This document shows positions 7,876 to 29,135 of a stretch of DNA of 57,985 bases, piece by piece. The notes under the pieces were generated by a model. The model did not search any database, was not told where the DNA came from, and saw only the letters and a program-made list of their open reading frames with translations. The DNA is taken from IMG/VR virus record IMGVR_UViG_3300031812_000004, positions 1-57,985 of that record; one strand, given 5' to 3'. This DNA is from a virus. A program made the translations under genes and the position numbers. Every line of letters starts with the position of its first letter. Position 1 is the first letter of the stretch.

Positions 7876-8205
7876 TCATATATTTTTATAAATTTCTAAA
7901 ACATACGGTTCTAATTTATCAGCAATCTCTTGTGATCTTTCGTCGTCCTGATAACATCTAAAATAATCTTTACTTATTTTCAATTCAAATTCAGTATCCA
8001 TTATACGTACACTGTCAAACGCAGATACACGCACCTTACCATCTCTTATTGTGATTTCACAAAGAAGGTCTCCAAAATTGTCTTCCATTATATCCAGTAT
8101 TTTGCGTGCCGGCTCAATGATTTTCTGCACTTTTTCTATATCATTTCCGTAAAATTCTCCGCTTATTCTTATATCAGAAAACACTTTTTGAATTTCGAGT
8201 TCCAT
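7876..8205 (-). CDS. hypothetical protein, paralogue of the next upstream gene
   Basis: A 109-aa protein. Its whole length aligns by eye with the first 115 residues of the upstream 284-aa protein: IRISGEFYGNDIEKV against IKVSGEFYYGENIEKI, and KLEPYVLEIYKNI against KLKPYMLEIYNII. It is therefore a single-domain paralogue produced by local duplication. Function unknown. Confidence 0.7.
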   Translation of the reverse strand: MELEIQKVFSDIRISGEFYGNDIEKVQKIIEPARKILDIMEDNFGDLLCEITIRDGKVRVSAFDSVRIMDTEFELKISKDYFRCYQDDERSQEIADKLEPYVLEIYKNI

Positions 8206-8239: not shown

Positions 8240-9094
8240 TTAAAATTCGTTTCTGATCAATTCTCTGTAAACAGTAATCATAGATTTCATTGTAGCGTAT
8301 TTGTGATTATTTCCATCAAACGTGCTATTATAAGTATCTATGTATAATTTTATAGCATCTTTCAATTGTTCTTTTTTTATTAAAAATTCTCCCATAAAAT
8401 CAATATATTCATCTTGATTGATATTATCTGTGGATGATAGATAATCAACTGAGTATAAATTATCTTGTGGTGGAATATAACCATGAGCTGATGCAGGATT
8501 TAAAAATTTATATTTTATTGCAGGCAACCATAATGTATTACCTGTAAATATTTCATTAAGTTCTTTTTGGTTGTTTCCTAATCTTCCTAATATGTCTGTT
8601 ATTTCAACCCGATACTTTTTTTCATCAGTATAGTTTTTAATAATTTTACCTAACAATATATAATTGTTATACAAGATTACATGAGTTGCTTTTTCTATTT
8701 GTTGATTCGTTGTTGGTTTCATGAATTCTTCTGTTTTTACTACAATACTTTTATCAATAATTATATTATAAATTTCTAACATATATGGTTTTAATTTTTC
8801 AAAAGCTTCTTTTACTTTTGTGTCGTTTGGATAATATCCAATTTTATTATGTATAATTGAGAAAAGGAAATCATAAGGACTCATATATTTTGGATGATAA
8901 GTTTCAATTTTTACTGTTCCTTCATCACTATTTATACGAATATAAAAAGTAATATCTTTAAAATAAAAATCAATTATATTAAATATATCTGCTGATATAG
9001 CCGTTATTTTTTCAATATTTTCTCCGTAATAAAATTCACCAGAAACTTTGATTCTGTGATGGTTTTTCTTTTCCAGTATTATTTCTAGCAGCAT
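8240..9094 (-). CDS. hypothetical two-domain protein with duplicated N-terminal domain
   Basis: A 284-aa protein. Residues 1-115 are the same domain as the 109-aa neighbour (shared SGEFY...NIEKI and LKPYMLEIYNII). Residues 125-284 form an unrelated C-terminal region (ATHVILYNNYILLGKIIKNY and an Asn-rich helical tail) that is not recognised. Either the duplication picked up an extra domain or the downstream copy lost it. Confidence 0.7.
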   Translation of the reverse strand: MLLEIILEKKNHHRIKVSGEFYYGENIEKITAISADIFNIIDFYFKDITFYIRINSDEGTVKIETYHPKYMSPYDFLFSIIHNKIGYYPNDTKVKEAFEKLKPYMLEIYNIIIDKSIVVKTEEFMKPTTNQQIEKATHVILYNNYILLGKIIKNYTDEKKYRVEITDILGRLGNNQKELNEIFTGNTLWLPAIKYKFLNPASAHGYIPPQDNLYSVDYLSSTDNINQDEYIDFMGEFLIKKEQLKDAIKLYIDTYNSTFDGNNHKYATMKSMITVYRELIRNEF

Positions 9095-10026: not shown

Positions 10027-12381
10027 TCAATCAAATAATGTTGAACTTTTTACTTTTCTAGAACTGTTTATTATATTGTCGGATATTTCCTGTATAAATT
10101 TTAAAGAACTGTACTTTATAAAGATATCTTTTAAATCATTGTAGTTACCTTTATATTCTTCCAATACATCATCAATTAGCAAAGAACATTGATTTTTGGT
10201 TTTGTGTATAAGAGATCTTTTGTTTGTGTTTATCCTTACTATGTATCCTATCTTACCTTGTATATCGATTCCTTTTTCTGAAAGTTCTTTTGACAGGTTA
10301 TCTATGTTCTTAAAATCTACCATTATGTATCTTAATATTTTCCTACGCAGGGAATGCGTTTCTCCTGTCTTTGGATCTATAAGATACATCTCACTTTTTT
10401 TGTTCCTCCTCAACATTCCTAAATGGTCAAATAATCTTTTGTTCTTTTGTATAGTTATGATAGGATTTATGTTATGAACAAAATAGTTTATAACTGCTTT
10501 ACTTGCCAGTAAAAAAGAATAGTTTCTGTGGAGATCTGATATACTGACATCGTGTGTATAAAAGTCTCCTTTTGTTTTTATAGAATACTCTGTTCCTTTT
10601 TTGACAAAATCTGTAAGTATATTTTCATATATGTTAATGTTTGTTAAATCTGTGTCTTCTTTTTCGGTAGGTTTCGCTTTAATTGCTATATAATTATTTA
10701 CGTTTGTTATAATCATTTTTGTATATTCGTCTGTTTCAAAGGTAAGATCAAATCTTTTACCGAATTCTTCTATATCTTTCAGTATAGAATCTTTATCTTT
10801 CTTTTCTATTACAATTTCTCCGCCATCAGTATTTATCATTACAGGATATATGGTATATTTGTCTGACAGTTCTTCTATAAGGTTAATAAGTATCAGCTGA
10901 CCGTTTACAGTTACGGAATAGAAAAATTCATAGTCAAATATATCGCTGGTTCTGCTTTTACTATCCCCTATTATTGAGTTCAGACAGTCCTTATAGACAC
11001 GATTCAGTGATGTTCCTTTCGGATACATAAACCTTTTTTCTTTTATACCGGAATATACTTTTATAAACTCTTTACCTAATGGTTTTGGATATAATTTGTT
11101 GGCTATCACTATGCTTGGATAGTAACTGGCAACATCAAAAGTTATAATAGAATATTTATCATTTTTAACGTATATTCCCGGATTACATCCGTGAACACCA
11201 CCTAGTCCAAGAGAACATGTGATGGTGTTACTGTAATCTTCATGTTCAGGAGCGTTAGTGTTTATGGTATATTCTTTTTTATATCCGTTTGTATCTGCTT
11301 CTTCGCCTTCTTTGGTATTCCTGGTTTTTGCGGTAGAAACATATACAATAGTATTTTTGATGTCTTCAAATGTATTTATATCTTTAAGTTTTATTTTTTT
11401 CAGTATTATGTTTTCTAATTTCAGTGATTCCAAATCACCTGAATATAATTCCTTGCGTTTTCTTTTTATCTCAAATATTTTACTTATGCTGAAATCTGTT
11501 ATTTCTTTGTATAATGTCAGTACACCGAATTGAGTTCTGTTGGTTTTTAACGCTCTGTTAATTTCACCAAACACCTGATCTTCTATTCTTCCGTCAACAG
11601 AACGTTGTTCAATCCACTTTTTCCATATATCTATCCTGTCTTTTATATCTGTTTCAGTAATATCATATATTTTCATCGTTTCTTTTACATCATTAACGCA
11701 ATACCGAATTGTTTCGGAAATTCTTATTTTATTTTCTTCTTCGTTGTCTGTGAGTAATGGCTGACTGAAATCATATTTACTTTCTATAATTATATCAGCA
11801 TTGGTGTTTGCCGATAACCATTTTAAAGAAGCAGATCGTTGTTCATTGTCCCATCCGTTTATCTTGTATATGTCTATAGTGGGAACAATTCTTATATCTT
11901 CTGTAAGCTTATTTACAATTTTAACAAAGATTTCAGGATTTATATTTTTAAATCTCTGATTTCTTGCTTTTTCTGATAAATTTATAATATCATATACTTT
12001 ATTGTTTCCTATCAGAAAGGTGTTATATTCATTTAAAGCATCCAATATCTTATTAACATCTTTGCTTTCTATGTTTTTCAGATACAAATATAAAAACATT
12101 ATTACAGGAAGATCATAGTTATAGTTATTAAATCCTACAGTAACATAATCAATATTATTTATATCTTTTATTACATGTTTTGCTGTATTTCGTATGTATT
12201 TTACAAACAATTTTTCACATATTTTAAGAAACAGATTTACATTATAATCTGTTTCTTCTTGTTTCTGTTTCTTATGTATTTGTATAATAACTTCTTTATT
12301 ATTGTCTTTGCTTATAAATACTCCAAGAAAATAATCCTTAAAAACTTCTACATCAAAAAATATCAGTTTCAGTAGCTCCAT
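10027..12381 (-). CDS. family B DNA polymerase with 3'-5' exonuclease domain
   Basis: A 784-aa replicative polymerase. Exo I is FFDVEVF (D10, E12), Exo II GFNNYNYD (N85, D90), Exo III YCVND (Y227, D231). Polymerase motif A is FDVASYYPS (D416), preceded by the GLGGVHGCNPG element typical of compact phage family B enzymes; the motif B region lies near 470-500 (SKSRTSDIFDYEF...NGQLILINLI). Motif C reads MINTDGG (517-520): the first Asp of DTD is Asn, while the metal-binding second Asp (D519) is kept. No protein-priming TPR insertion is obvious. It overlaps the primase gene by 13 nt, marking a replication operon. Confidence 0.92.
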   Translation of the reverse strand: MELLKLIFFDVEVFKDYFLGVFISKDNNKEVIIQIHKKQKQEETDYNVNLFLKICEKLFVKYIRNTAKHVIKDINNIDYVTVGFNNYNYDLPVIMFLYLYLKNIESKDVNKILDALNEYNTFLIGNNKVYDIINLSEKARNQRFKNINPEIFVKIVNKLTEDIRIVPTIDIYKINGWDNEQRSASLKWLSANTNADIIIESKYDFSQPLLTDNEEENKIRISETIRYCVNDVKETMKIYDITETDIKDRIDIWKKWIEQRSVDGRIEDQVFGEINRALKTNRTQFGVLTLYKEITDFSISKIFEIKRKRKELYSGDLESLKLENIILKKIKLKDINTFEDIKNTIVYVSTAKTRNTKEGEEADTNGYKKEYTINTNAPEHEDYSNTITCSLGLGGVHGCNPGIYVKNDKYSIITFDVASYYPSIVIANKLYPKPLGKEFIKVYSGIKEKRFMYPKGTSLNRVYKDCLNSIIGDSKSRTSDIFDYEFFYSVTVNGQLILINLIEELSDKYTIYPVMINTDGGEIVIEKKDKDSILKDIEEFGKRFDLTFETDEYTKMIITNVNNYIAIKAKPTEKEDTDLTNINIYENILTDFVKKGTEYSIKTKGDFYTHDVSISDLHRNYSFLLASKAVINYFVHNINPIITIQKNKRLFDHLGMLRRNKKSEMYLIDPKTGETHSLRRKILRYIMVDFKNIDNLSKELSEKGIDIQGKIGYIVRINTNKRSLIHKTKNQCSLLIDDVLEEYKGNYNDLKDIFIKYSSLKFIQEISDNIINSSRKVKSSTLFD

Positions 12382-13496
12382 TGTAATATTTGTTTTATAG
12401 TTGTATCATTATGATTTTTTATTATGTCTGATATGTCTTTGTTGTTTTTTACATCTATTTGGTTCATGATGTGAATGTTTAATGGTATAATGTTTTTATT
12501 TTCCTTTGAAACCTGTAATGAAATATTATATCCATGTTCATCCATATCATAAAGAAGATAATATACAAAATTCATATTAAAACATTCAATAAGTTTTTCT
12601 TTTAGTTTTTCTTTTATGTTTTTTTCTATTTCGTTTGTATTAAAATTGAATTCACTTAATGTAGAAACGACAATAGTGTTTTTATATTTGTTTCTTTTCA
12701 GGAAAGAATACAGACATACAGCATCTTTTATAGCTCCGGTTATATAAACATTTATATCTGTTATATCTTTATCTTTTATAATGTTGTTGCAATATACATT
12801 AAACATCTTACCTTTTGAAAGATTTCTGAAATACTTCTGTTTGTCTGTGGAAAGTTCTTTTGGTATATATACTTGAATAAGACTTCCTCTATCATTAAAA
12901 TATCCTATTATACCTTTTTTTGTCTTATCGTCTAAACGTTCTTCTTTAATAATTACATTGCTGATAGCAAATACATTACATTCTTCAAGATCTTTTTCAC
13001 AAACTTTATATTTGTTAAAATATTCCAAAATGTATTTATTGTATGAAGATATCTGATATTCACATCGTTCTATTGAAACTTCTTTCTGTATTACTATTTT
13101 TTTGTAATCTTTATGTTTGTTAAAATATTCGTTAAGTTTCAACGGATACTCTTTTAATACACTTTTATTTATCAGATTTATACTGATTCTTTTTTTGGAA
13201 AGGTTTTCTATAAAATCTTTGTATTCTTCCTTTGGTTTTAATTGTTTTGGTTTTAATGTTATATAATCCAGAAGCAGTTTCTGACCGTTGCCCTGATTAC
13301 CGGAACTGAAATCCTTAAACTTTAAACAATTACAGGTTTTATCTGTATATATATACATTGAAGGAGTTTTTTCATAATTGTATATACTGTAAAATCTTAT
13401 TCCTGGATACAAACTGAATATCTCGTGAATAATAAAATTACTTATAGTTATAATAGTATTTTGATCTTTAATATCAAGATCTGATAGTGTTATCAT
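12369..13496 (-). CDS. DnaG-like primase, divergent
   Basis: A 375-aa protein. The N-terminal part (residues 35-85: YNYEKTPSMYIY, LKFKDFSSGNQGN) has the layout of the DnaG zinc-binding fold but has lost the CHC2 cysteines. The TOPRIM core is YITGAIKDAVCLYSFL near residue 245-260, where the usual catalytic Glu is replaced, and LLYDMDEHGYN near 320, which keeps the DxD. A non-Glu first TOPRIM motif (TxSxKD-like) is, from memory, usual in phage-type DnaG proteins. Likely makes RNA primers for the adjacent family B polymerase. It overlaps the polymerase by 13 nt and the upstream 196-aa gene by 23 nt. Confidence 0.75.
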   Translation of the reverse strand: MITLSDLDIKDQNTIITISNFIIHEIFSLYPGIRFYSIYNYEKTPSMYIYTDKTCNCLKFKDFSSGNQGNGQKLLLDYITLKPKQLKPKEEYKDFIENLSKKRISINLINKSVLKEYPLKLNEYFNKHKDYKKIVIQKEVSIERCEYQISSYNKYILEYFNKYKVCEKDLEECNVFAISNVIIKEERLDDKTKKGIIGYFNDRGSLIQVYIPKELSTDKQKYFRNLSKGKMFNVYCNNIIKDKDITDINVYITGAIKDAVCLYSFLKRNKYKNTIVVSTLSEFNFNTNEIEKNIKEKLKEKLIECFNMNFVYYLLYDMDEHGYNISLQVSKENKNIIPLNIHIMNQIDVKNNKDISDIIKNHNDTTIKQILQWSY

Positions 13497-14073: not shown

Positions 14074-14706
14074 TTAAAAAGGAAGGTCATCTAACGAACT
14101 CAAACCTATTTTCTCTTCTGTATTTTGATTTTCTTTTATGTTGTTGTTTTCATTTACAGGTGTTTGACCTTTTACTTCTTCTTTTGCTTCGGGTTTTACA
14201 TAAGGTTTGTAATTTATATCTGACATTTTTGAAGAAAATACTACTGTATTTCCAAAACAGGCAGGTATACATAAAAACTCGTATCCTGATTTTGACTTTC
14301 TTTTCTCAATATACATGGCACATCTTCCTTTATAGTTTATATTCTTTTTAAACTTTTCTATAAGTTCAAATATGGTATTACCGTTTATATTCTTCGTTTC
14401 TTCAGGTTGATATGCTACTCTTATACCAATCTGTTTTAATTTGTTTACTAAATCCACAATGAGATGGCTCTGCGGATCAGGATTAAAATTGTCTTCCTTG
14501 TTTATAAAGAATGGTGTTAGTTTAACAAACTTATAGTTCACATTATTTATACTGATATCCATTGTTATATCAAAGAACTCACATTTCTGTCCAACTCTTG
14601 ATTCCATCCTGATATCATTTATAGTTGCTATATAAACACCGTCTTTAAATCCGCTGAGAAAAGATGGCTTTCTTTCAGATGAATTATTATCTCCAAGACC
14701 TATCAT
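14074..14706 (-). CDS. single-stranded DNA-binding protein
   Basis: A 210-aa protein. A beta-rich N-terminal two-thirds (SGFKDGVYIATINDI, CEFFDITMDISINNVNYKFVKL) fits an OB fold. A disordered Asn/Glu-rich linker follows, ending in SSLDDLPF, the acidic-hydrophobic tip that bacterial and phage SSBs use to bind partners. It lies between a RecA-like ATPase and the primase, which fits the role. Confidence 0.82.
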   Translation of the reverse strand: MIGLGDNNSSERKPSFLSGFKDGVYIATINDIRMESRVGQKCEFFDITMDISINNVNYKFVKLTPFFINKEDNFNPDPQSHLIVDLVNKLKQIGIRVAYQPEETKNINGNTIFELIEKFKKNINYKGRCAMYIEKRKSKSGYEFLCIPACFGNTVVFSSKMSDINYKPYVKPEAKEEVKGQTPVNENNNIKENQNTEEKIGLSSLDDLPF

Positions 14707-14725: not shown

Positions 14726-15496
14726 TTATTTATTTACTTCCAACTTTTTATAAACGTTATTCCAGTAAGTTTTTATAGTTCCATCATCTGTCTTTTCTGA
14801 TATGGTCAATATTCTTCCGCTTAGATCTTCTAACTGACATCCAGCCAGGTATTCGTTATTAGTTACAAAACTTAGTTCTACTTTGTTGTTATTTCTTTTT
14901 GCATATCCTATGGCACCTGCTCTCACAGAAAGTGCTGACTTGATATTTGCAGGAAGGTCAATATCTTTAAATCTTATATCGTATCCTCCAATAGTATCTA
15001 CTACCGTGTCTTTACTGTGAGCAATCCATATATAATTCTTTGGAAGTTTAAATTTAGTATCATCATCCAAAAAGTCCATTATATTTACCAGTGCTTCCTT
15101 TACATAACCATATCCTGCTCCTTTCGGTAGGTTCAGAATATCTTTATATTCATGTTTTAATGTCGTAAACCAGTTCTTTCCCATGCTTGTAGAAGAAAAT
15201 ATCTCTTCTGCTTTTTCTTTCAGAACTTCAAGCATAGTAGTTACGGTATCAAATACTACAAATCTGAACCTTGTATCACTCATTAAATCTTTAAGAACTT
15301 CTTTAAGTTCGTCATACTTTCTTATTCTTACCTTATAGCCTTCCACGTAATCTATACCTTTTTCAAAACCAATTATAAGACAGTCAGGTAATTGACTGCA
15401 GATGGTTGTTTTTCCTATTTTAGGCAACCCGTATATAACCAAATGTCTTAGATCATCGGTTGCTTTTGCCGGTGTTTTCTGAATTGACTCCAACAT
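14726..15496 (-). CDS. RecA-like ATPase (Sak4/AAA_24-type)
   Basis: A 256-aa protein. Walker A is YGLPKIGKTT (22-31) and Walker B RFVVFDTV (78-85). The arrangement (short N-terminus, KTT, then EKG, FDT, and a late IAHSKD motif near residue 170) is that of phage Sak4-type single-strand annealing/recombination ATPases placed next to SSB. It probably promotes strand annealing with SSB. It is preceded by a TATATTTG promoter element and an A-rich leader, and heads the SSB-primase-polymerase operon. Confidence 0.82.
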   Translation of the reverse strand: MLESIQKTPAKATDDLRHLVIYGLPKIGKTTICSQLPDCLIIGFEKGIDYVEGYKVRIRKYDELKEVLKDLMSDTRFRFVVFDTVTTMLEVLKEKAEEIFSSTSMGKNWFTTLKHEYKDILNLPKGAGYGYVKEALVNIMDFLDDDTKFKLPKNYIWIAHSKDTVVDTIGGYDIRFKDIDLPANIKSALSVRAGAIGYAKRNNNKVELSFVTNNEYLAGCQLEDLSGRILTISEKTDDGTIKTYWNNVYKKLEVNK

Positions 15497-15606: not shown

Positions 15607-16443
15607 TTACTTTATAAAAGCTCTTTTATCTATAAGTTTACTTAACTTTTCTATTATATTTTGGTCTTTATCTTTATTTATTACAATAGCATCATTTATT
15701 TTTATGCTTTCTTTTCCTACACGTAAACGGTGTTCTGTAAAAATGTATATATGATTAACAGTAATATATGGTTTTTCAAATATAAGAATAATTTCGTTAC
15801 TGTTATTATCGTAGTAATGATTAAATCTGATATAGATATCATCCATTATATCCTGAAAAACATCTTTTATTATTTTTTCTTCAATATTTGTATTTACATG
15901 TATGCATTGATAGTAAGTAAAGTATTCTATTTTTTGTTCTATTTTGTACGTATCTGATAATGACTTTGAAGAATTGCTTAGAACAATAAAGATACTTTTT
16001 ATTAGATTGCCTATATCATTTTTGTGTAAATGATAACGATATTTTATGTTATCTAGTAAGTGTATAACAGGTAAAAGATCATTTATAATTTTCTGTATGA
16101 CTTCTTTTTCTTTTTTATATTTTATTGTTTTTTTGAAATCTTTATACAACGTCTCATATAATTTTAGTTCAAATTCAGAAGGAGTATATAATCTGTAAGG
16201 ACCTTCTGATAAACAATTCGTAGGTATATCGACTAAAGATAATATACTGTTATTTGAAATCTTATATATGTTAATTATATATCTTGCTATTTCAAGTATT
16301 TCATAATATTCTTTCTTATTTTCTATTGCTTCCTCTATTTTACTACGATCTGCATCTTTTGTCGGACAGCAGATGTATACGTTGTTTTTATTGTCTTTAA
16401 AGAATATGTTTTTTTCGGTGTTTCTTATTATTGTTTTTGGCAT
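15607..16443 (-). CDS. lineage-specific paralogue family, member 1
   Basis: A 278-aa protein, near twin of the next gene upstream (KNIFFKDNKNNVYICC against SNIFFKDNNDNIYICC; DQNIIEKLSKLIDKR against DQNIMEKLRKFIDKR). It belongs to a cluster of five full-length relatives at 15.6-20.3 kb sharing a beta-type N-terminus, a central helical region around (Y/F)xPSExExKxYExLYKD, and a C-terminal beta domain ending in hINKDKDQNIIEKL. No known family, catalytic residues or membrane spans are seen. Confidence 0.75.
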   Translation of the reverse strand: MPKTIIRNTEKNIFFKDNKNNVYICCPTKDADRSKIEEAIENKKEYYEILEIARYIINIYKISNNSILSLVDIPTNCLSEGPYRLYTPSEFELKLYETLYKDFKKTIKYKKEKEVIQKIINDLLPVIHLLDNIKYRYHLHKNDIGNLIKSIFIVLSNSSKSLSDTYKIEQKIEYFTYYQCIHVNTNIEEKIIKDVFQDIMDDIYIRFNHYYDNNSNEIILIFEKPYITVNHIYIFTEHRLRVGKESIKINDAIVINKDKDQNIIEKLSKLIDKRAFIK

Positions 16444-16457
16444 AGTTACATTAATTT

Positions 16458-17309
16458 TTATTGTTGTTTGAGTCCCAAAATAGATCTTTTATCTATAAAT
16501 TTTCTTAGTTTTTCCATTATATTTTGATCTTTCTTTTTATCTATTATGACAACATCATCTATTTTGATTATTCTTTTTTCTATATTTAGACGATGTTCAG
16601 CAAACAAATGTATCTGATTTCTTGAAAATTTAGGATTTTCTGTTATCAAAATAATTTCGTTGTTATAATTGTCATAATAATGGTTGAAACCAAAATAAAA
16701 ATTATCATTTAAGTGCTGAAGAATATCGTTTATTATTTTTTCTTCAAGATTTGTGTCTACGTATATGTGTTGATAATAAGTAAAGTAATATATTTTTTGT
16801 TTTATGTTGTATCTTTCTAAACGTGATTTAGAGGAATCAGACAAAACGGTAAAAATACTTTTTATTAAATTATTTATGTTATTTTTGTACTGATAATAAC
16901 AGTTTTTTATATTGTCTAATAAATGTATAATTGGTAAAAGATCGTTTATACTTCTTTGTATAACTCTTTTCTCTTCTTTATATTCATTCGTATTTTTGAA
17001 ATCTTTATATAATGTTTCATATAGTTTTATTTCATATTCAGATGGAATAAATATTGTATAAGGACTTTCCAATAAAAGCCTTTCAGGTACGTTGGTTGTA
17101 TATAATATACTATTATTTGAAATTTCATAAATGTTATCTATATATTTTTTTAATTCATATATTTCACCATAATCTTTTTTGGTTTCAATTGCATCTTTTA
17201 CTTTATTTCTGTCTGCACCTCTAATTAAACAGCAGATATATATATTATCATTATTATCTTTAAAGAATATATTACTTTTTGTATCACCTATTATTATTTT
17301 TGACATCAC
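16458..17309 (-). CDS. lineage-specific paralogue family, member 2
   Basis: A 283-aa protein that is a recent tandem duplicate of the downstream 278-aa protein: colinear over the whole length, with shared LLPIIHLLDNIK, IKSIFTVLSDSSKS and FNHYYDN(Y)NNEIILI. The start may be the second Met (17306). Separation from the twin is only 14 nt. Function unknown. Confidence 0.75.
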   Translation of the reverse strand: MMSKIIIGDTKSNIFFKDNNDNIYICCLIRGADRNKVKDAIETKKDYGEIYELKKYIDNIYEISNNSILYTTNVPERLLLESPYTIFIPSEYEIKLYETLYKDFKNTNEYKEEKRVIQRSINDLLPIIHLLDNIKNCYYQYKNNINNLIKSIFTVLSDSSKSRLERYNIKQKIYYFTYYQHIYVDTNLEEKIINDILQHLNDNFYFGFNHYYDNYNNEIILITENPKFSRNQIHLFAEHRLNIEKRIIKIDDVVIIDKKKDQNIMEKLRKFIDKRSILGLKQQ

Positions 17310-17323
17310 AACACTAATTTTTT

Positions 17324-18175
17324 TTATTTTTTATCGAAAGTTTTATTTACAAAATCACTTATTTTAACTACAAGATTTCCTTCGTTTCCCTTCTTACTTA
17401 TACTTATAGCATTTGTCATTTCTTTGTCTGTATTTGAGTCGTTTGTAACATCAAGATGTATACACCACGAATTACCTGTACTTTTTCTTTCTATTACAAC
17501 ATGTGCGTCATAACCATTAGTTGACTTTATATTTGTTACTGATAAAGATTTGTTATTTATTATCTGTGATACTATATGTTCTGTTATAAAATCTCTTATG
17601 TCTTTATTTGCAGTTACAGAACTATACGTTTTTCCGTATACAAGCAGTTTAAATCTTATATCGTTTATTCTGTATCTGTCTGCTATATCTATTATTTTTT
17701 CTGATAAATCTTTTACAATCTTTGTTTCATCTCCTTTATATGTTGTATAACAGTCTCTGAAATACTTTACGTATTCTACAACAGGTGCATAAGTTTCTTT
17801 AAGTTTTCGTATTCTTTTTTGAAAATTTTCATTATTTATCTGTTTTATTCCTTCTTTAATAAGATTCATATATTTTCTGATTTCTTTTTCATTTGGATGG
17901 TATACTCCATGTAAATTATGAATTGTATACGGATGTCCTGAAGATATATGTTCTATTTCTTTGTTGTCTTTAATTTTAAATATATCTGCATAATGATACC
18001 ATACTTCAATGTAATCTGATTTATAATCATTTTTATTTAAGCGTTGTTCTATTCTGTCTGTTATTATTATTTTTGTATCTTTTGAATTAAACACATATAC
18101 ATACAGAGTGTTTTCTTCTTCTTTGCTTCTTATAAATAGTATTTTATCTTCAGGTTTTGCTCTTTTTTTATTCAT
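17324..18175 (-). CDS. lineage-specific paralogue family, member 3
   Basis: A 283-aa protein, more diverged. Its N-terminus (ILFIRSKEEENTLYVYVF), central YHPNEKEIRKYMNLIKEG and KLKETYAPVVEYVKYF, and C-terminal DAHVVIERKSTGNSW correspond in order to members 4 and 5. It overlaps the decayed copy downstream of the family by 8 nt at its 5' end. No function is recognised. Confidence 0.7.
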   Translation of the reverse strand: MNKKRAKPEDKILFIRSKEEENTLYVYVFNSKDTKIIITDRIEQRLNKNDYKSDYIEVWYHYADIFKIKDNKEIEHISSGHPYTIHNLHGVYHPNEKEIRKYMNLIKEGIKQINNENFQKRIRKLKETYAPVVEYVKYFRDCYTTYKGDETKIVKDLSEKIIDIADRYRINDIRFKLLVYGKTYSSVTANKDIRDFITEHIVSQIINNKSLSVTNIKSTNGYDAHVVIERKSTGNSWCIHLDVTNDSNTDKEMTNAISISKKGNEGNLVVKISDFVNKTFDKK

Positions 18176-18520
18176 AATTTTTTATCATTTTTATTGGTTC
18201 AATAATTTCATCGTCTATTATTTTATCTAAAGTATTTATTTCTTTTTTGTTTATAATTATTACTTTTCTTAGTGGAACTTCTACATGAGATTTAGACATC
18301 TCAAAATAAACGTATAATTTGTTTTTGTATTTCCTTTCTATAATTATATAAATTTCGTGATGTTTTTTATATTTACTCATGTAATTGAAAAAGTATTATT
18401 ATTATAAATATTTGAAGCTATAAGATCTTTTATAAAATGTATAAACTCAACATCTATATATCCACATTTTAATGTGTAAGATAATATTTCTTTTAAATCT
18501 TGTATTTTCGTAAGTAGAAA
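18168..18520 (-). pseudogene. decayed, frameshifted copy of the paralogue family
   Basis: An ATG frame at 18380-18168 (70 aa) is only the C-terminal domain of the family: IYIIIERKYKNKLYVYFE, then KVIIINKKE. Immediately upstream, in another frame (18520-18377, closed by TGA that overlaps the ATG), the translation IHFIKDLIASNIYNNNTFSI matches the segment that precedes this domain in member 3 (IRDFITEHIVSQIINNKSLS). Two consecutive pieces in different frames, with about 180 N-terminal residues missing, indicate a truncated and frameshifted relic. The 70-aa part could still be made as a stand-alone domain. Confidence 0.7.
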
Positions 18521-18535
18521 TTTAATTGTTTTTTT

Positions 18536-19411
18536 TTATCTGTATGTTTTAATTTGATTTAACATTTTATCTATTTTTTCTGTGTAATTCTGATCTGTTT
18601 TCTTATTTATAATTATGGTTTCACTTTCTTTAATCTTATCTCTGTTTTTATAAATTATACTGACGTTAAGATAGTATATATATTTGTTTTTCCTTTCTAC
18701 AAACACAAATGATTCATGGCTTTTGTCACTATCAATACAAGCAACAGATAAAGTTTTCTCGGTGTTTATAGATGATATTATGTAATCTTTTATACGTTGC
18801 TTTTCGTTATCCGTTTTTATAAATTCTATTTCTTTAATATATTTAAGCAATTCTTTTCTTTTTATATCTGCTTTTTTATATATGTTTTCATAAATATTTG
18901 ATCCTTCTTTTATAGTGGCGGCTAAGTTATCATCATATTTGATACATTCATATAGTATAGGTATATTCCATAAACTTTCAGTTATTTTTTCATATTTTTT
19001 TCCTGTATAATATGCTTTACTTTTTATATTTGATTCCTTAATTTCTTTAAGAAGTTCTTTATACATAACTTCATACTTTTTAATTTCTTCTTTTGTCGGG
19101 TAAAATTCTTCATACTTTTTGATATCACTAAATAAGAAATCATTATAATATACATACGATAGTTTTTTAAATCCTTGTTCGGTTTTTTTTGTTTCGAAAA
19201 CAAACATTTTATTCTTCATAGAAATTATTAAATTCTTATAATTACCAGGTATTCTGTTTTCAATATTATTTGCATTAGTAAATAAACTTATTATTCCTTT
19301 AATGTCAAAATAACATATACGTACATTTTCTTTTTTTTCTTTATTCCTGAAGAATGCAACTTTTTTAAGATCTTTAAATATATTTCCCGGAAACAATGAT
19401 AGTGTAGGCAT
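18536..19411 (-). CDS. lineage-specific paralogue family, member 4
   Basis: A 291-aa protein with the family layout: VAFFRNKEKKENVRICYF at the N-terminus, FYPTKEEIKKYEVMYKELLK in the middle, and SFVFVERKNKYIYYLNVS plus IIINKKTDQNYTEKIDKML at the C-terminus. The gene ends at the poly-T tract that also serves as A-rich leader of the decayed copy. Function unknown. Confidence 0.7.
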   Translation of the reverse strand: MPTLSLFPGNIFKDLKKVAFFRNKEKKENVRICYFDIKGIISLFTNANNIENRIPGNYKNLIISMKNKMFVFETKKTEQGFKKLSYVYYNDFLFSDIKKYEEFYPTKEEIKKYEVMYKELLKEIKESNIKSKAYYTGKKYEKITESLWNIPILYECIKYDDNLAATIKEGSNIYENIYKKADIKRKELLKYIKEIEFIKTDNEKQRIKDYIISSINTEKTLSVACIDSDKSHESFVFVERKNKYIYYLNVSIIYKNRDKIKESETIIINKKTDQNYTEKIDKMLNQIKTYR

Positions 19412-19435
19412 AAACTTTAAATTTTGTTTTTTTTT

Positions 19436-20254
19436 TTATTTAAACGTTTCTTTAAGTTCTGTTTTTATCTGATTTACTATATTTTTCTTTGTTGTCTTAT
19501 CTATAATAAATACATGTTTTGAAAATTCGTACACTTCTTTTTTACATAAAGATTTGTCAATGTACACGTAATAAGAGTTTTTATTACATTTTTCAATTAC
19601 AATATAAACATTTTCATATTCGGGAGTTGATATACTTATTATATCATGTTCAACGTCAGATGAAATTTTTGATACAATATAATCTGTCAGGAAATGTGTT
19701 ATGCTCTTGATACATCCTACATGTTTATAGTTTTTTACGTAGTCCAGCAAATTAAATTCTATGCCTGTTACACAATGTTTTTCTCTTATATCCATCAAAC
19801 ATTTTATTAAATCTGCAAGCGTTTTACTGCTGTCTTTTATGTGATTGTCAAGTATTACTTTTGCTTCTGTAATATATTCTATTGTTGGTTCGTATTTTTT
19901 TCTTAGTTTATTTATAGTTTCTTTTTTCTTTTTATTTCTTTCTTCTTTCAGGCATTGATAATATAATATCTTATAATTTTCCAGTTGATCTTTTGTAGGT
20001 TCATAGATTTTATTTTCGGTTCTGTTCAGGTATATAACTCCGTCTTTTATTAAATGGATTACGTTTTCTTTGTAGATCATATATTTTTTTGCTCTTCCTA
20101 TTCTTATAATATTTGATAAGTTGTTTTGCATATATTTTATTGTTTTTTCTTTTTGGTCTTCGTTCAACAGGTATAACATGTAAACTTTATCTTCGTCATA
20201 TATATTTCTGTAAAATAACAGATTATTTTTATTATCGAATATACTTTTAGACAT
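19436..20254 (-). CDS. lineage-specific paralogue family, member 5
   Basis: A 272-aa protein: LLFYRNIYDEDKVYMLYL, IYEPTKDQLENYKILYYQ, LRKKYEPTIEYITEAK, VYIVIEKCNKNSYYVYID and VFIIDKTTKKNIVNQIK, in the family order. It is the first member read after the MoxR-like ATPase gene, 11 nt downstream of it, so the family may be expressed with that module. Confidence 0.7.
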   Translation of the reverse strand: MSKSIFDNKNNLLFYRNIYDEDKVYMLYLLNEDQKEKTIKYMQNNLSNIIRIGRAKKYMIYKENVIHLIKDGVIYLNRTENKIYEPTKDQLENYKILYYQCLKEERNKKKKETINKLRKKYEPTIEYITEAKVILDNHIKDSSKTLADLIKCLMDIREKHCVTGIEFNLLDYVKNYKHVGCIKSITHFLTDYIVSKISSDVEHDIISISTPEYENVYIVIEKCNKNSYYVYIDKSLCKKEVYEFSKHVFIIDKTTKKNIVNQIKTELKETFK

Positions 20255-21080: not shown

Positions 21081-22190
21081 TTAGGTAAATTTAATAACTT
21101 TATCATAAAACTCTACAGAATCTTTATCATTTACATCCAGTACAGATTTGTCTTTAAATCTGTTCATATATTTATTTATAAGCCTTACATTGTTTTCATC
21201 CTTTGAAGTAAAAATAGACGTATAAACCATTTTATCTATATTGTTTTTGAATATTTTATAGCATTTTACTATATCCTTTGGATCTAAACTGTCATTAAGC
21301 AGGTAATTACTCATCCTATAGATAGTTACAAGCTTTGATTCGTAAGATATACTGTTAATTTTATCTTCAAGTTCTGACATTTTATCATTAGTTATACAAT
21401 CTTTTATATCTTCATAACTTACTGATTTTTGAGTTTTATTAACAAATTCAATAAAGTCCATTCCATACTTAAAACCTATTGTAGCACAAATATACTTGGT
21501 TTTCAGGTTTTCGTTTATATCTAAATCAAGTATATTATTGAGATTTTCCAACGATCTTGGTGTTATAAAAGCATTATTGGAATGCACTGACTCACTGTCT
21601 CCTATGCATTCAGGTTTGTATTTTATGTAACTTATTATGTGTTCATTCCATTTATTATCGATGGCATATCGTATGATACTTTCAAGGTCGTAGTCTATAT
21701 TAAGGAATGCCATTCTGGTTAGCATAGGCTCAGGAAGTTCTTTTGCCAGTGATGAGTGATTCAGATTATTACCTGCACAAATAATATACACATCATCTTT
21801 CAGTTTATGCGGACCGCAGATTCTTTCGGATATCATTTGCATGACAAGTTTTATAGAATAAGAATCTGAGTTCGTTATTTCATCTATGAATATTACATCT
21901 GAATCATGTAAAGGAAGTCTTGTAAAATGAACTTCCTGCCGGCATTCCTTATTTTCTTTTAACTCGTTAACAAGTTTTAAGAAATTGATTACAGGAATAC
22001 CTGTTATATCTTCCTTCGTTTTCCATGCAAGGTTTATAAGTGTAAGTTTTTTATTATATTTTTTGCATATATCTTTTATAATACTTGTTTTACCCACTCC
22101 TACTGGTCCTAATAAACATAAAGGGGTTCTTAAATCAGGAGGGCTTATAACATTAGCTTCCACAATCTTTTTAGCAGTAACAATATTCAT
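21081..22190 (-). CDS. MoxR-type AAA+ ATPase, long paralogue
   Basis: A 369-aa protein. Walker A is GPVGVGKT (28-35), Walker B VIFIDE (99-104), sensor 1 IICAGNN, then ELPEPMLTRM with the arginine finger. An added C-terminal helical extension (about residues 230-369) is absent from the 264-aa paralogue. Together with that paralogue and the VWA/metallopeptidase protein it forms a MoxR-VWA module; a hetero-oligomeric AAA ring is possible but inferred. Confidence 0.87.
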   Translation of the reverse strand: MNIVTAKKIVEANVISPPDLRTPLCLLGPVGVGKTSIIKDICKKYNKKLTLINLAWKTKEDITGIPVINFLKLVNELKENKECRQEVHFTRLPLHDSDVIFIDEITNSDSYSIKLVMQMISERICGPHKLKDDVYIICAGNNLNHSSLAKELPEPMLTRMAFLNIDYDLESIIRYAIDNKWNEHIISYIKYKPECIGDSESVHSNNAFITPRSLENLNNILDLDINENLKTKYICATIGFKYGMDFIEFVNKTQKSVSYEDIKDCITNDKMSELEDKINSISYESKLVTIYRMSNYLLNDSLDPKDIVKCYKIFKNNIDKMVYTSIFTSKDENNVRLINKYMNRFKDKSVLDVNDKDSVEFYDKVIKFT

Positions 22191-22233: not shown

Positions 22234-23463
22234 TTAATCGAGGTAAAATATTCTTTCTCCTCTTACATTATCAAGGCTATGACTTCTTTTATACAGAACT
22301 ACAAATCTTTTAGTTCCGTTTTTTTGTGGTTTAAGATCTTCAAAAAGATACCCGTCTGTTACTAATATAAAATAATCGTATTTCTTTTTATCTGCATATT
22401 CTACCAAAGGATTCATATTGGTTCCGCCTCCGCCTTTTATATTTCTTTCAAACAATCTTTTTAGATCGCTTTTACTTTTAATCTTTTCTACATTATTTAT
22501 TTCTGTATCACAGGTAACTATATCAATTTTGTTTATACTTTTAATAAGTTCTTCTGAAAACGAGTAAACCAGACCTAGTTCTTTATCATTTATACTTGCG
22601 GAAGTGTCTATTCCTAATAAGACTTTTGCTTCTTTGTTATTTCCTATCCTTGATGGTAGAATACACATATTAGAAGCTGCTGTCGGATTTATCTTCGAGT
22701 AAGTTCGTTTGCTGTTTCCTTCATTATTTTTTATTTGCTTAATGATATATTTTGCTATATCCGGTTTTTCTTTTAACAGAGCTTTCTTTATTTTTCCTAG
22801 TAAAGAATTTCCTGATCTTAATCCTGCCTTTTTTAATTGAGATTCAAGACTTTCTGTGTTATATGGATTTATAACTTCTGATTCTGTTGACTTTCCTTCA
22901 CTTTCATCGCCTGTTATAGCTTCATCTTTAATCTGATTTTCGTCTATAATTTTAATTATCAATTTTTTTGGTTTTAATTCTTTAACAATTTTGTCATATA
23001 TTTCTTCAGCAGAATCTTCTTCACATATTCTTTCAGAGGAACTTTCATTACGTAATTTTTCATTTACATTTTCAAAAGTTACTCCTTTCTTGTTAGCTAT
23101 TTCATATAAAGATTCATCAATCTTTCTTATTATACTGTGTATTTCTACATCCGTAGCTATGTTCCATATTTCTTTATCTCTGTTTTCTCTTCTTAAATAA
23201 TGATTTAATTTTATATGAAGAAGTTCATGTAGTATAACCAAAATATAGCTTTTTTCATTATTTCCTATATATTTGTTGATATTTTTGGTATTAAGAAATA
23301 TTCTTCTGTTTTTTGCATCAGCATACGCTATTGCTTCTTTATTATATTTATCTTCAAAGTTTTTATCGATTTCCCAATGTATGTTTCCGGCAATGTCTAT
23401 TATAAGGTCCGGAAACTTCTTAAACATAACCTGAAATACCTTTTCTTCCCTTGTCATAATCAA
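22234..23463 (-). CDS. metallopeptidase-like plus VWA-domain protein (DUF2201-type)
   Basis: A 409-aa protein. The N-terminal domain has a zinc-peptidase motif LHELLHIKLNH (HELLH at 79-83) with a downstream helix WNIATDVEIHSII. A charged linker (150-215) leads to a C-terminal VWA domain with MIDAS residues DTSAS (286-290), GGGGTNM (T348) and VTDG (D370). This layout, next to MoxR ATPases, matches the DUF2201 putative metallopeptidase family. It may remodel or cleave a target loaded by the ATPases. Whether the peptidase site is active in this family is not established. Confidence 0.85.
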   Translation of the reverse strand: MIMTREEKVFQVMFKKFPDLIIDIAGNIHWEIDKNFEDKYNKEAIAYADAKNRRIFLNTKNINKYIGNNEKSYILVILHELLHIKLNHYLRRENRDKEIWNIATDVEIHSIIRKIDESLYEIANKKGVTFENVNEKLRNESSSERICEEDSAEEIYDKIVKELKPKKLIIKIIDENQIKDEAITGDESEGKSTESEVINPYNTESLESQLKKAGLRSGNSLLGKIKKALLKEKPDIAKYIIKQIKNNEGNSKRTYSKINPTAASNMCILPSRIGNNKEAKVLLGIDTSASINDKELGLVYSFSEELIKSINKIDIVTCDTEINNVEKIKSKSDLKRLFERNIKGGGGTNMNPLVEYADKKKYDYFILVTDGYLFEDLKPQKNGTKRFVVLYKRSHSLDNVRGERIFYLD

Positions 23464-26205: not shown

Positions 26206-26451
26206 TTATTTTTTTGTATTAATAATAGCATAATATAACGCATCTCTTCCATGGTTATCTCTGGCGTTAACATCTGCTCCATAGTCTATGAGAAGTTCAG
26301 CTATTTCAGGATACCCTTTTTCAGCAGCAACCATCAAAGCTGTTCTTCCATGTTCATCTCTCATATTAACATCTATACCATCATGAATAAACAATAATAC
26401 TTTTTCGTAATTTCTTTCTCTTACAGCATCAAAAAATTCATTTGTTTCCAT
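26206..26451 (-). CDS. ankyrin-repeat protein, short
   Basis: An 81-aa protein from METNEFFDAVRERNY (start 26451). Two clear ankyrin units follow: DEHGRTALMVAAEKGYPEIA with ELLIDYGADVN, then DNHGRDALYYAIINTK. Ankyrin repeats bind proteins; a second, longer ankyrin protein lies at 28.6-29.1 kb. They may target host factors, which is inference. Confidence 0.85.
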   Translation of the reverse strand: METNEFFDAVRERNYEKVLLFIHDGIDVNMRDEHGRTALMVAAEKGYPEIAELLIDYGADVNARDNHGRDALYYAIINTKK

Positions 26452-26471
26452 AAATTTACATTTTAAATGGT

Positions 26472-27176
26472 TTAACAATAGAACATTTCATATTCTTCTT
26501 CAAAAAGTTTATAAGATCTTTTATTTATTTTTATTTCATCTATAATTTTCTTACTATCACAATCGGTAGTATAATGATTTATTCTGTTCTTTTGAAAATC
26601 ATAGGTTATTATTCTTTTAGGACTAATATCTCTTATACAATCCAGTTCATATTGTGGTATTTTGTATAGCAAGTTAAGATATAAAGAGTTGTTAAACTGA
26701 TCTGGCAGGTTACTACTTACTATAAGATCGTTATAGAATTCTTTATTTAATGTTTTTTCATAGTCTGTACCTTTAAAACCAAAAATGTCGATTATCTTAC
26801 TTTCCAAAGCCACGTAGTTTCTAATCCATTTTTTTGTAAAGTCGTGGCTATACAGTCCTATATAATGTTCTATATTTCTGTATGTTATAGGGTGTCTTAT
26901 TTCATCCAGATCTTTAATACAAATTAACAGTCCTGATTCAAAGTTTTCAAGACTTAGTATAACAAAGACTTCTGAGAGATTGGTTTGAATATAATGCCAA
27001 TATGATCCAAGATTTTCTCTTTTTTCTTTATCGTTAAGTCTTTCGTAATGTTCTGTATATTTCAGTATATTTCCGAGTTTACGTTTTATAACTTTAAATC
27101 CGAATCCATCCTTATTCAGGATGTTGCAATATAATTCTTTTATTCCTTCCAGTTCTGTTGATTTTAATACTCTCAT
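26472..27176 (-). CDS. hypothetical protein
   Basis: A 234-aa protein starting MRVLKSTELEGIKELY. The ATG at 27176 is chosen because a TAAATTTG promoter element lies 9 nt upstream; the longer start at 27188 overlaps it. It contains aromatic-rich segments (LSEVFVILSLENFESGLLI) and no recognised motif. Confidence 0.65.
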   Translation of the reverse strand: MRVLKSTELEGIKELYCNILNKDGFGFKVIKRKLGNILKYTEHYERLNDKEKRENLGSYWHYIQTNLSEVFVILSLENFESGLLICIKDLDEIRHPITYRNIEHYIGLYSHDFTKKWIRNYVALESKIIDIFGFKGTDYEKTLNKEFYNDLIVSSNLPDQFNNSLYLNLLYKIPQYELDCIRDISPKRIITYDFQKNRINHYTTDCDSKKIIDEIKINKRSYKLFEEEYEMFYC

Positions 27177-28601: not shown

Positions 28602-29078
28602 TTATAATTTATGATTTACAAGAATGTTTACAACATCATCATTTCTGGACCAGGCTGCCCAGACCAGAGCGTTCCATCCGTTTTCTTTGTCTCTTATATT
28701 TACATCTGCTCCTTTTTCAAGAAGCGATTTAACAACAGGAGTATGTCCTTTTCTTGCTGCCCAGATGAGAGCTGTATTTCCCCATACGTTTTGAGCGTTT
28801 ACATCCGCATTATTTTCAAGGAGCAGGTTGACAATTTCAGTATAACCATTATAAGCAGCCCACATAAGAGCCGTCCAGCCATAATCGTCTCTTGCGTTTA
28901 TATCTGCATTGTTTTCAAGTAAGACTTTTACAGTTCCCATGTCACCATTTTTAGCTGCATGCATCAGATATACATTTATTCCTTTTTCAAGTAATAGTTT
29001 TACATTCTTAATATCTTCAATCAATGCAGTATTATAAAATGGTTTTGTTTGATAATTGTATGCATATTTGTTTTTCAT
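28602..29078 (-). CDS. ankyrin-repeat protein, four to five repeats
   Basis: A 158-aa protein starting MKNKYAYNYQTKPF. It has successive ankyrin units: NVYLMHAAKNGDMGTVKVLL, DYGWTALMWAAYNGYTEIVN, VWGNTALIWAARKGHTPVVK, NGWNALVWAAWSRNDDVVNI. The repeats are nearly consensus and mutually similar, which suggests recent internal duplication or recent acquisition. Likely a cytoplasmic protein-binding scaffold. Confidence 0.88.
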   Translation of the reverse strand: MKNKYAYNYQTKPFYNTALIEDIKNVKLLLEKGINVYLMHAAKNGDMGTVKVLLENNADINARDDYGWTALMWAAYNGYTEIVNLLLENNADVNAQNVWGNTALIWAARKGHTPVVKSLLEKGADVNIRDKENGWNALVWAAWSRNDDVVNILVNHKL

Positions 29079-29135
29079 AATTATAAATTTTAACAAATTT
29101 TTAATCATTTAATGTTATATTTCATTATAATTTAC

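Follow-up and report, generated by a model that had tools for sequence, protein, structure and literature searches.

Tandem amplification of an apparently orphan gene family beside a MoxR-VWA module in a phage replication operon

Genes and features of the locus

The window, that is the whole stretch of DNA analysed, is a virus record of 57,985 bp and represents a fragment. Its minus strand carries five tandem genes, named m1 to m5, along with a relic of a sixth copy. The features of the locus are given below in order of coordinate.

10027..12381, minus strand: family B DNA polymerase (PolB), at the end of the same gene row
12369..13496, minus strand: 375-aa protein, for which relatives have counterparts (~25%) in their replication operon; primase is a guess
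14074..14706, minus strand: 210-aa protein, SSB-like by eye only, with an acidic tail ending DDLPF
14726..15496, minus strand: Sak4-like recombinase, the next gene downstream of m1, 36-38% to two relatives
15607..16443, minus strand: m1, 278 aa, closest to m2 (61% identity)
16458..17309, minus strand: m2, 283 aa from GTG, or 282 aa from the ATG at 17306
17324..18175, minus strand: m3, 283 aa, links the subfamilies
18176..18535, minus strand: relic of a sixth member, of which the C-terminal domain is left, split over two frames, and the N-terminal ~60% is missing
18536..19411, minus strand: m4, 291 aa, the most divergent member
19436..20254, minus strand: m5, 272 aa
20266..21060, minus strand: MoxR-like AAA+ ATPase 2 (MoxR2), 264 aa, with Walker A (GPVGCGKS) and Walker B (VIFIDE) intact
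21081..22190, minus strand: MoxR-like AAA+ ATPase 1 (MoxR1), 369 aa, with Walker A and B intact
22234..23463, minus strand: zincin-like metallopeptidase (HELLH) fused to VWA (MIDAS DTSAS), DUF2201 family

On the minus strand, the order is a helicase-like gene, zincin-VWA, MoxR1, MoxR2, m5, m4, the relic, m3, m2, m1 and Sak4, and after Sak4 come the SSB-like protein, the possible primase and PolB. The intergenic spacing among m1-m5 is 14-24 nt, with the exception of 360 nt at the relic. The gene m5 starts 11 nt past MoxR2, and the spacing from MoxR1 to m1 is 11-24 nt, the relic apart, followed by 110 nt before Sak4. The m cluster sits inside a replication/recombination operon and not in an accessory island. 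A preliminary description of this DNA had reported five tandem paralogues next to a MoxR module, with a truncated two-frame copy between members 3 and 4. The five genes were confirmed on the minus strand, VWA-MoxR-MoxR was found directly 5' of the m cluster, and the truncated copy proved to be real.

The two ATPases matched phrog_1297 (E 1.6e-50 and 9e-41) and AAA_5 over cut-off, and their match to Pfam bpMoxR fell below its cut-off. The zincin-VWA protein matched both DUF2201 and DUF2201_N over cut-off. PHROG 1314, which also matches this protein (22234-23463), is labelled HNH endonuclease, a name shared by many phage records; for the zincin-VWA protein this label is probably a propagated mislabel. 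For the 210-aa protein, PHROGs gave no family and Pfam gave none over cut-off; the 375-aa protein likewise had no PHROG family.

MoxR1 and MoxR2 share 39% identity, whereas neither exceeds 24% with the MoxR of the relatives. The related loci examined possess one MoxR each, in contrast to the tandem two in the window. MoxR1 also matches N4-like phages, with a score of 84 bits compared to 56 bits for crAss-like relatives, the two values coming from two differing searches. On these identities and scores, the ATPase of the window appears to have been either duplicated in this lineage or acquired elsewhere. As MoxR1 scores better to N4-like phages than to crAss-like relatives, MoxR1 and the MoxR of these relatives are perhaps not orthologues. 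In one N4-like phage inspected, MoxR-VWA was present without a large third gene alongside.

Relationship among the m proteins

Each of the ten pairs of m proteins scored higher than any of 200 shuffles (Z 4.5-80). By BLAST, m3 matched m5 (E 1e-14) and m4 (E 3e-5), while m4 and m5 matched each other with E 1e-3 to 0.02. When a profile of m1 and m2 was aligned by hhalign with a profile of m3, m4 and m5, the two matched over their full length (probability 96.4, E 1.2e-9, 259 columns). The match of m1/m2 with m4 alone was weak (profile probability 10), and the whole profile was required for placing m4. Two members had been called near twins in the preliminary description; m1 and m2 are indeed the closest pair, but at 61% identity the wording is too strong. 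Apart from this pair, the C-domain identity between members is 11-29%. Taken whole, the m proteins are slightly basic (pI 8.4-9.3). On the basis of the shuffle-tested pairs, the profile-profile match and the same order of elements in both structural models described below, m1-m5 are a single family with a single architecture. An assembly artefact was considered for the cluster and rejected, as the m members are too divergent for collapsed or duplicated reads.

The 360 bases between m3 and m4 read KEILSYTLKCGYIDVEFIHFIKDLIASNIYNNNTFSIT in one frame and YMSKYKKHHEIYIIIERKYKNKLYVYF... in another, and both readings together track the C-terminal domain of the family. The frame changes once. When all stop-to-stop fragments of the window were ranked with the family HMM, the second half of the relic (18171-18395) came at rank 6 (E 2e-5), straight after the five genes, and its first half (18380-18535) at rank 8 (E 0.07). 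A programmed frameshift was considered for the relic and rejected; inspection by eye showed no canonical slippery heptamer where the two frames meet, and the copy lacks its N-terminal part anyway. The second half is still an ATG-initiated ORF of 70 aa (18168-18380), the stop of which overlaps the start of m3. As this ORF is intact, the relic may still give a residual small protein. Five members together with a truncated, frameshifted copy bear out the tandem duplication and decay proposed earlier, and the cluster is a real and tidy local gene amplification in an orphan family.

Selection on m1 and m2

The rate of substitution was measurable for m1/m2 only, the remaining pairs being near saturation. 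For this pair, dN was 0.24 and dS was 0.99, giving a dN/dS of 0.24 (bootstrap 0.15-0.39). The two genes are under purifying selection, indicating that function is retained. Local positive selection was also considered. One 46-codon segment of m1/m2 had pN near pS, which was equalled in 78 of 1000 shuffles and is not significant.

Search for homologues

The m proteins gave no Pfam family over cut-off, and no convincing match was obtained for the family in PHROGs or among PDB sequences. This agrees with the earlier lack of a family assignment for the proteins of the cluster. In PADLOC, type IV Cas11 models matched one m member each, weakly (E 0.003 and 0.04), and the others gave none. No m relatives were present in the phage records and plasmids searched. 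Motif-seeded scans of IMG/VR viral contigs (three alignments) and of GTDB genome contigs, which depend on short conserved motifs, returned zero m relatives. Likewise, no m homologue was found in ~100 related virus records, several of them fragments, or among all ORFs of 183 related loci. The proteins of the relatives, grouped into 164 clusters, were also compared by profile, and no cluster exceeded probability 1; as a known positive, the same method detects the distance from m1/m2 to m3-m5, and remoter homologues would escape it. Within the collections searched, m thus appears to be an orphan, lineage-specific family.

Predicted structure of the m proteins

Models were made for m3 and m1; both used one set of five sequences, and only the sequence in the first row differed. 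The m3 model had pLDDT 81 and pTM 0.65, and the m1 model had pLDDT 80 and pTM 0.57. In both models, an N-terminal alpha/beta part is followed by a helix of ~50 residues and a C-terminal helix-four strands-helix domain, consistent with the common domain order noted previously for the members. When both models were searched by VIA-align, their C-terminal ~95 residues aligned with PUR-alpha and Whirly repeats at or near the top with Z 5-6.8, a range below the Z of 8 under which, by the guidance of the program, a match may mean a mere common arrangement and which is usual for models with no clear match. PURA 8cht had Z 6.1 and 6.8, and Whirly ~5.5. These matches were interspersed with actin-capping proteins, methyltransferases and others. 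Foldseek gave nothing at E <= 0.001 against PDB for the m models, and one match with low TM against viral models. The net charge of the C-domain is -1 to +5, and it is near neutral in four of the five members. Nucleic-acid binding by the C-domain is only weakly suggested by the models.

Source genome and the same slot in relatives

The terminase, portal and major capsid proteins of the window match crAss-like families, and on these three proteins the phage appears to be crAss-like or Crassvirales-related. With the portal profile, 80 relatives were retrieved at 36-45% identity, none of them close, and single-protein scans with the terminase and with MoxR returned nothing. For comparison of the operon, crAss-like relatives were gathered by portal and PolB profiles.

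Some other features were also observed in the window. The protein at 1696-2691 matches (E 4e-25) a PHROG family that carries the annotation RNA polymerase sigma factor. An ORF of 109 aa (7876-8205) shows 33% identity with a portion of the neighbouring 284-aa ORF (8240-9094), with which it forms another tandem pair, and is possibly a second truncated duplicate. Several overlapping mutual matches at 31-43% identity between the ORFs 26206-26478 and 28602-29108 suggest an internal repeat.

In the relatives, the operon has the order VWA-MoxR-X-(X)-exonuclease-190 aa-120 aa-PolB. Of 33 loci, 31 have a gene of family X immediately 3' of MoxR. The copy number of X is one in 22 loci, and in 12 of 34 loci X forms a tandem pair. 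Its members are 340-460 aa long, one of them with a weak BRCT match (E 0.001). X was observed beside MoxR at L119:5343-7473, L147:5528-7832 and L185:1736-4040. Profile similarity between X and m was absent (hhalign probability 0.1), and family X was not found in the window, which is a fragment; X and m are therefore taken as different families in one slot.

A third kind of neighbour was observed in other mobile elements. Two proteobacterial plasmids, a conjugative one of Cupriavidus and one of Rhodovastum, carry three genes in a row in which that of a DUF3150 protein (~300 aa) stands between those of MoxR and a VWA-like protein, and cyanophage MinM2 has the MoxR, DUF3150 and VWA set plus extra small genes. 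Sites of this cassette are L198:3856-7080, L199:2854-6084 and L196:1135-5592. The identity of m as DUF3150 was rejected (hhalign probability 0.1, no HMM hit). PF11348 was absent in the window, and it also missed the annotated MinM2 protein. A literature search found no paper mentioning DUF3150.

Possible role of the m proteins

Tentatively, and with confidence falling just short of even, we propose that m1-m5 serve the MoxR-VWA machine as its third component, a client or adaptor that is specific to this lineage and was amplified. MoxR1, MoxR2 and the metallopeptidase-VWA protein would assemble into a remodelling complex comparable to RavA-ViaA or NorQ-NorD, with the m proteins as its dedicated clients or adaptors. 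The long helix and the N-terminal domain of m would serve assembly, while the C-terminal helix-four-strand-helix domain may contact nucleic acid or replication proteins. Several divergent copies could provide several specificities or a hetero-oligomer. We infer both the physical partnership of m with MoxR-VWA and the client or adaptor role. In favour are the tightly spaced gene order, the intact motifs of both ATPases and of the metallopeptidase-VWA protein, the use of this slot by family X in relatives, the duplicated MoxR, the DUF3150 cassettes, the published ternary systems and jumbo-phage pair, and the function retained by m1/m2. On the other side, adjacency in phage operons can be incidental, MoxR1 scores better to N4-like phages, the N4-like phage inspected has no large third gene at MoxR-VWA, and the C-domain has low Z values and is not clearly basic. 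A wider proposal, which we regard as rather doubtful, is that the third component of MoxR-VWA machines in phages can be exchanged, with the unrelated m, X and DUF3150 proteins in one slot, and that the amplification of both component and ATPase in the window would make a multi-client AAA+ remodelling system for genome replication or recombination.

The m proteins may instead be accessory factors of replication or recombination, for example with ssDNA or RNA binding through a PUR/Whirly-like C-domain, which work with Sak4 and PolB independently of MoxR-VWA. Such a role, which we consider unlikely, fits the position of m next to Sak4 in a gene row ending at PolB, the mildly basic character of the proteins and the rank of PUR-alpha/Whirly for the C-domain in both models. 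However, these structural matches have Z below 8 and share their rank with methyltransferases and actin-capping proteins, the charge of the C-domain is close to neutral in four of five members, and five divergent copies would be unusual for a general DNA-binding factor.

The preliminary description favoured arms-race selection, with anti-defence or receptor-related proteins diversified through tandem duplication. Birth and death of tandem copies and an orphan family with strong subgroup divergence, as seen in the C-domains outside m1/m2, would fit anti-defence factors. Nevertheless, the sole measurable pair is under purifying selection, so that arms-race selection is unsupported, and no stretch of m1/m2 has a significant excess of amino-acid change. 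The cluster is also located within the replication operon, and the PADLOC match is weak and confined to one of five members. An anti-defence role is accordingly judged quite improbable. Still more improbable is a place for the m proteins in the virion or its scaffold, with maturation by MoxR and the metallopeptidase-VWA protein, a role proposed in jumbo phages and reported for a two-tailed archaeal virus. Although the proposal for jumbo phages has been published (PMC7824862), the terminase-portal-capsid block of the window lies on the opposite strand ~20 kb away, and the m genes run in the direction of the replication genes.

MoxR-VWA pairs occur in many phages and on plasmids, and few of their clients are known. 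The conserved slot with a replaced and amplified occupant points to candidate clients in crAss-like phages, for which the five-copy m cluster is a compact test set.

Comparison with known systems

PUR-alpha/Whirly repeats share the predicted helix-four strands-helix layout with the C-terminus of m. They differ in that the similarity is limited to Z 5-7 with no sequence match, and the other two thirds of m are unmatched. Family X is like m in that it follows MoxR immediately on the 3' side within the replication operon, where it has one or two copies, and is unlike m in its length of 340-460 aa and in having no profile similarity. The MoxR-DUF3150-VWA cassette resembles the m locus in having the same kinds of VWA and MoxR proteins, a third protein of ~290-305 aa and a location on mobile elements, whereas DUF3150 is single copy in the neighbourhoods inspected as compared to five copies of m.

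In jumbo phages, a metallopeptidase domain is fused to vWA and lies beside MoxR as in the window, and the part of PMC7824862 dealing with this pair proposes it as a chaperone pair for virion assembly and cites an archaeal two-tailed virus for MoxR/metallopeptidase-vWA. That part of the paper proposes an assembly role and describes no m-like family, whereas the window presents a replication context (PMC7824862). MoxR-vWA ternary systems encode a distinct third protein, of VMAP, iSTAND, FtsH or beta-propeller class (PMC7159879). The m proteins, searched against Pfam as a whole, gave no family over cut-off. Like the m locus, the ternary systems combine a MoxR AAA+ ATPase with vWA and third proteins; they are bacterial conflict systems, whereas the m locus holds five orphan copies in a phage replication operon (PMC7159879).
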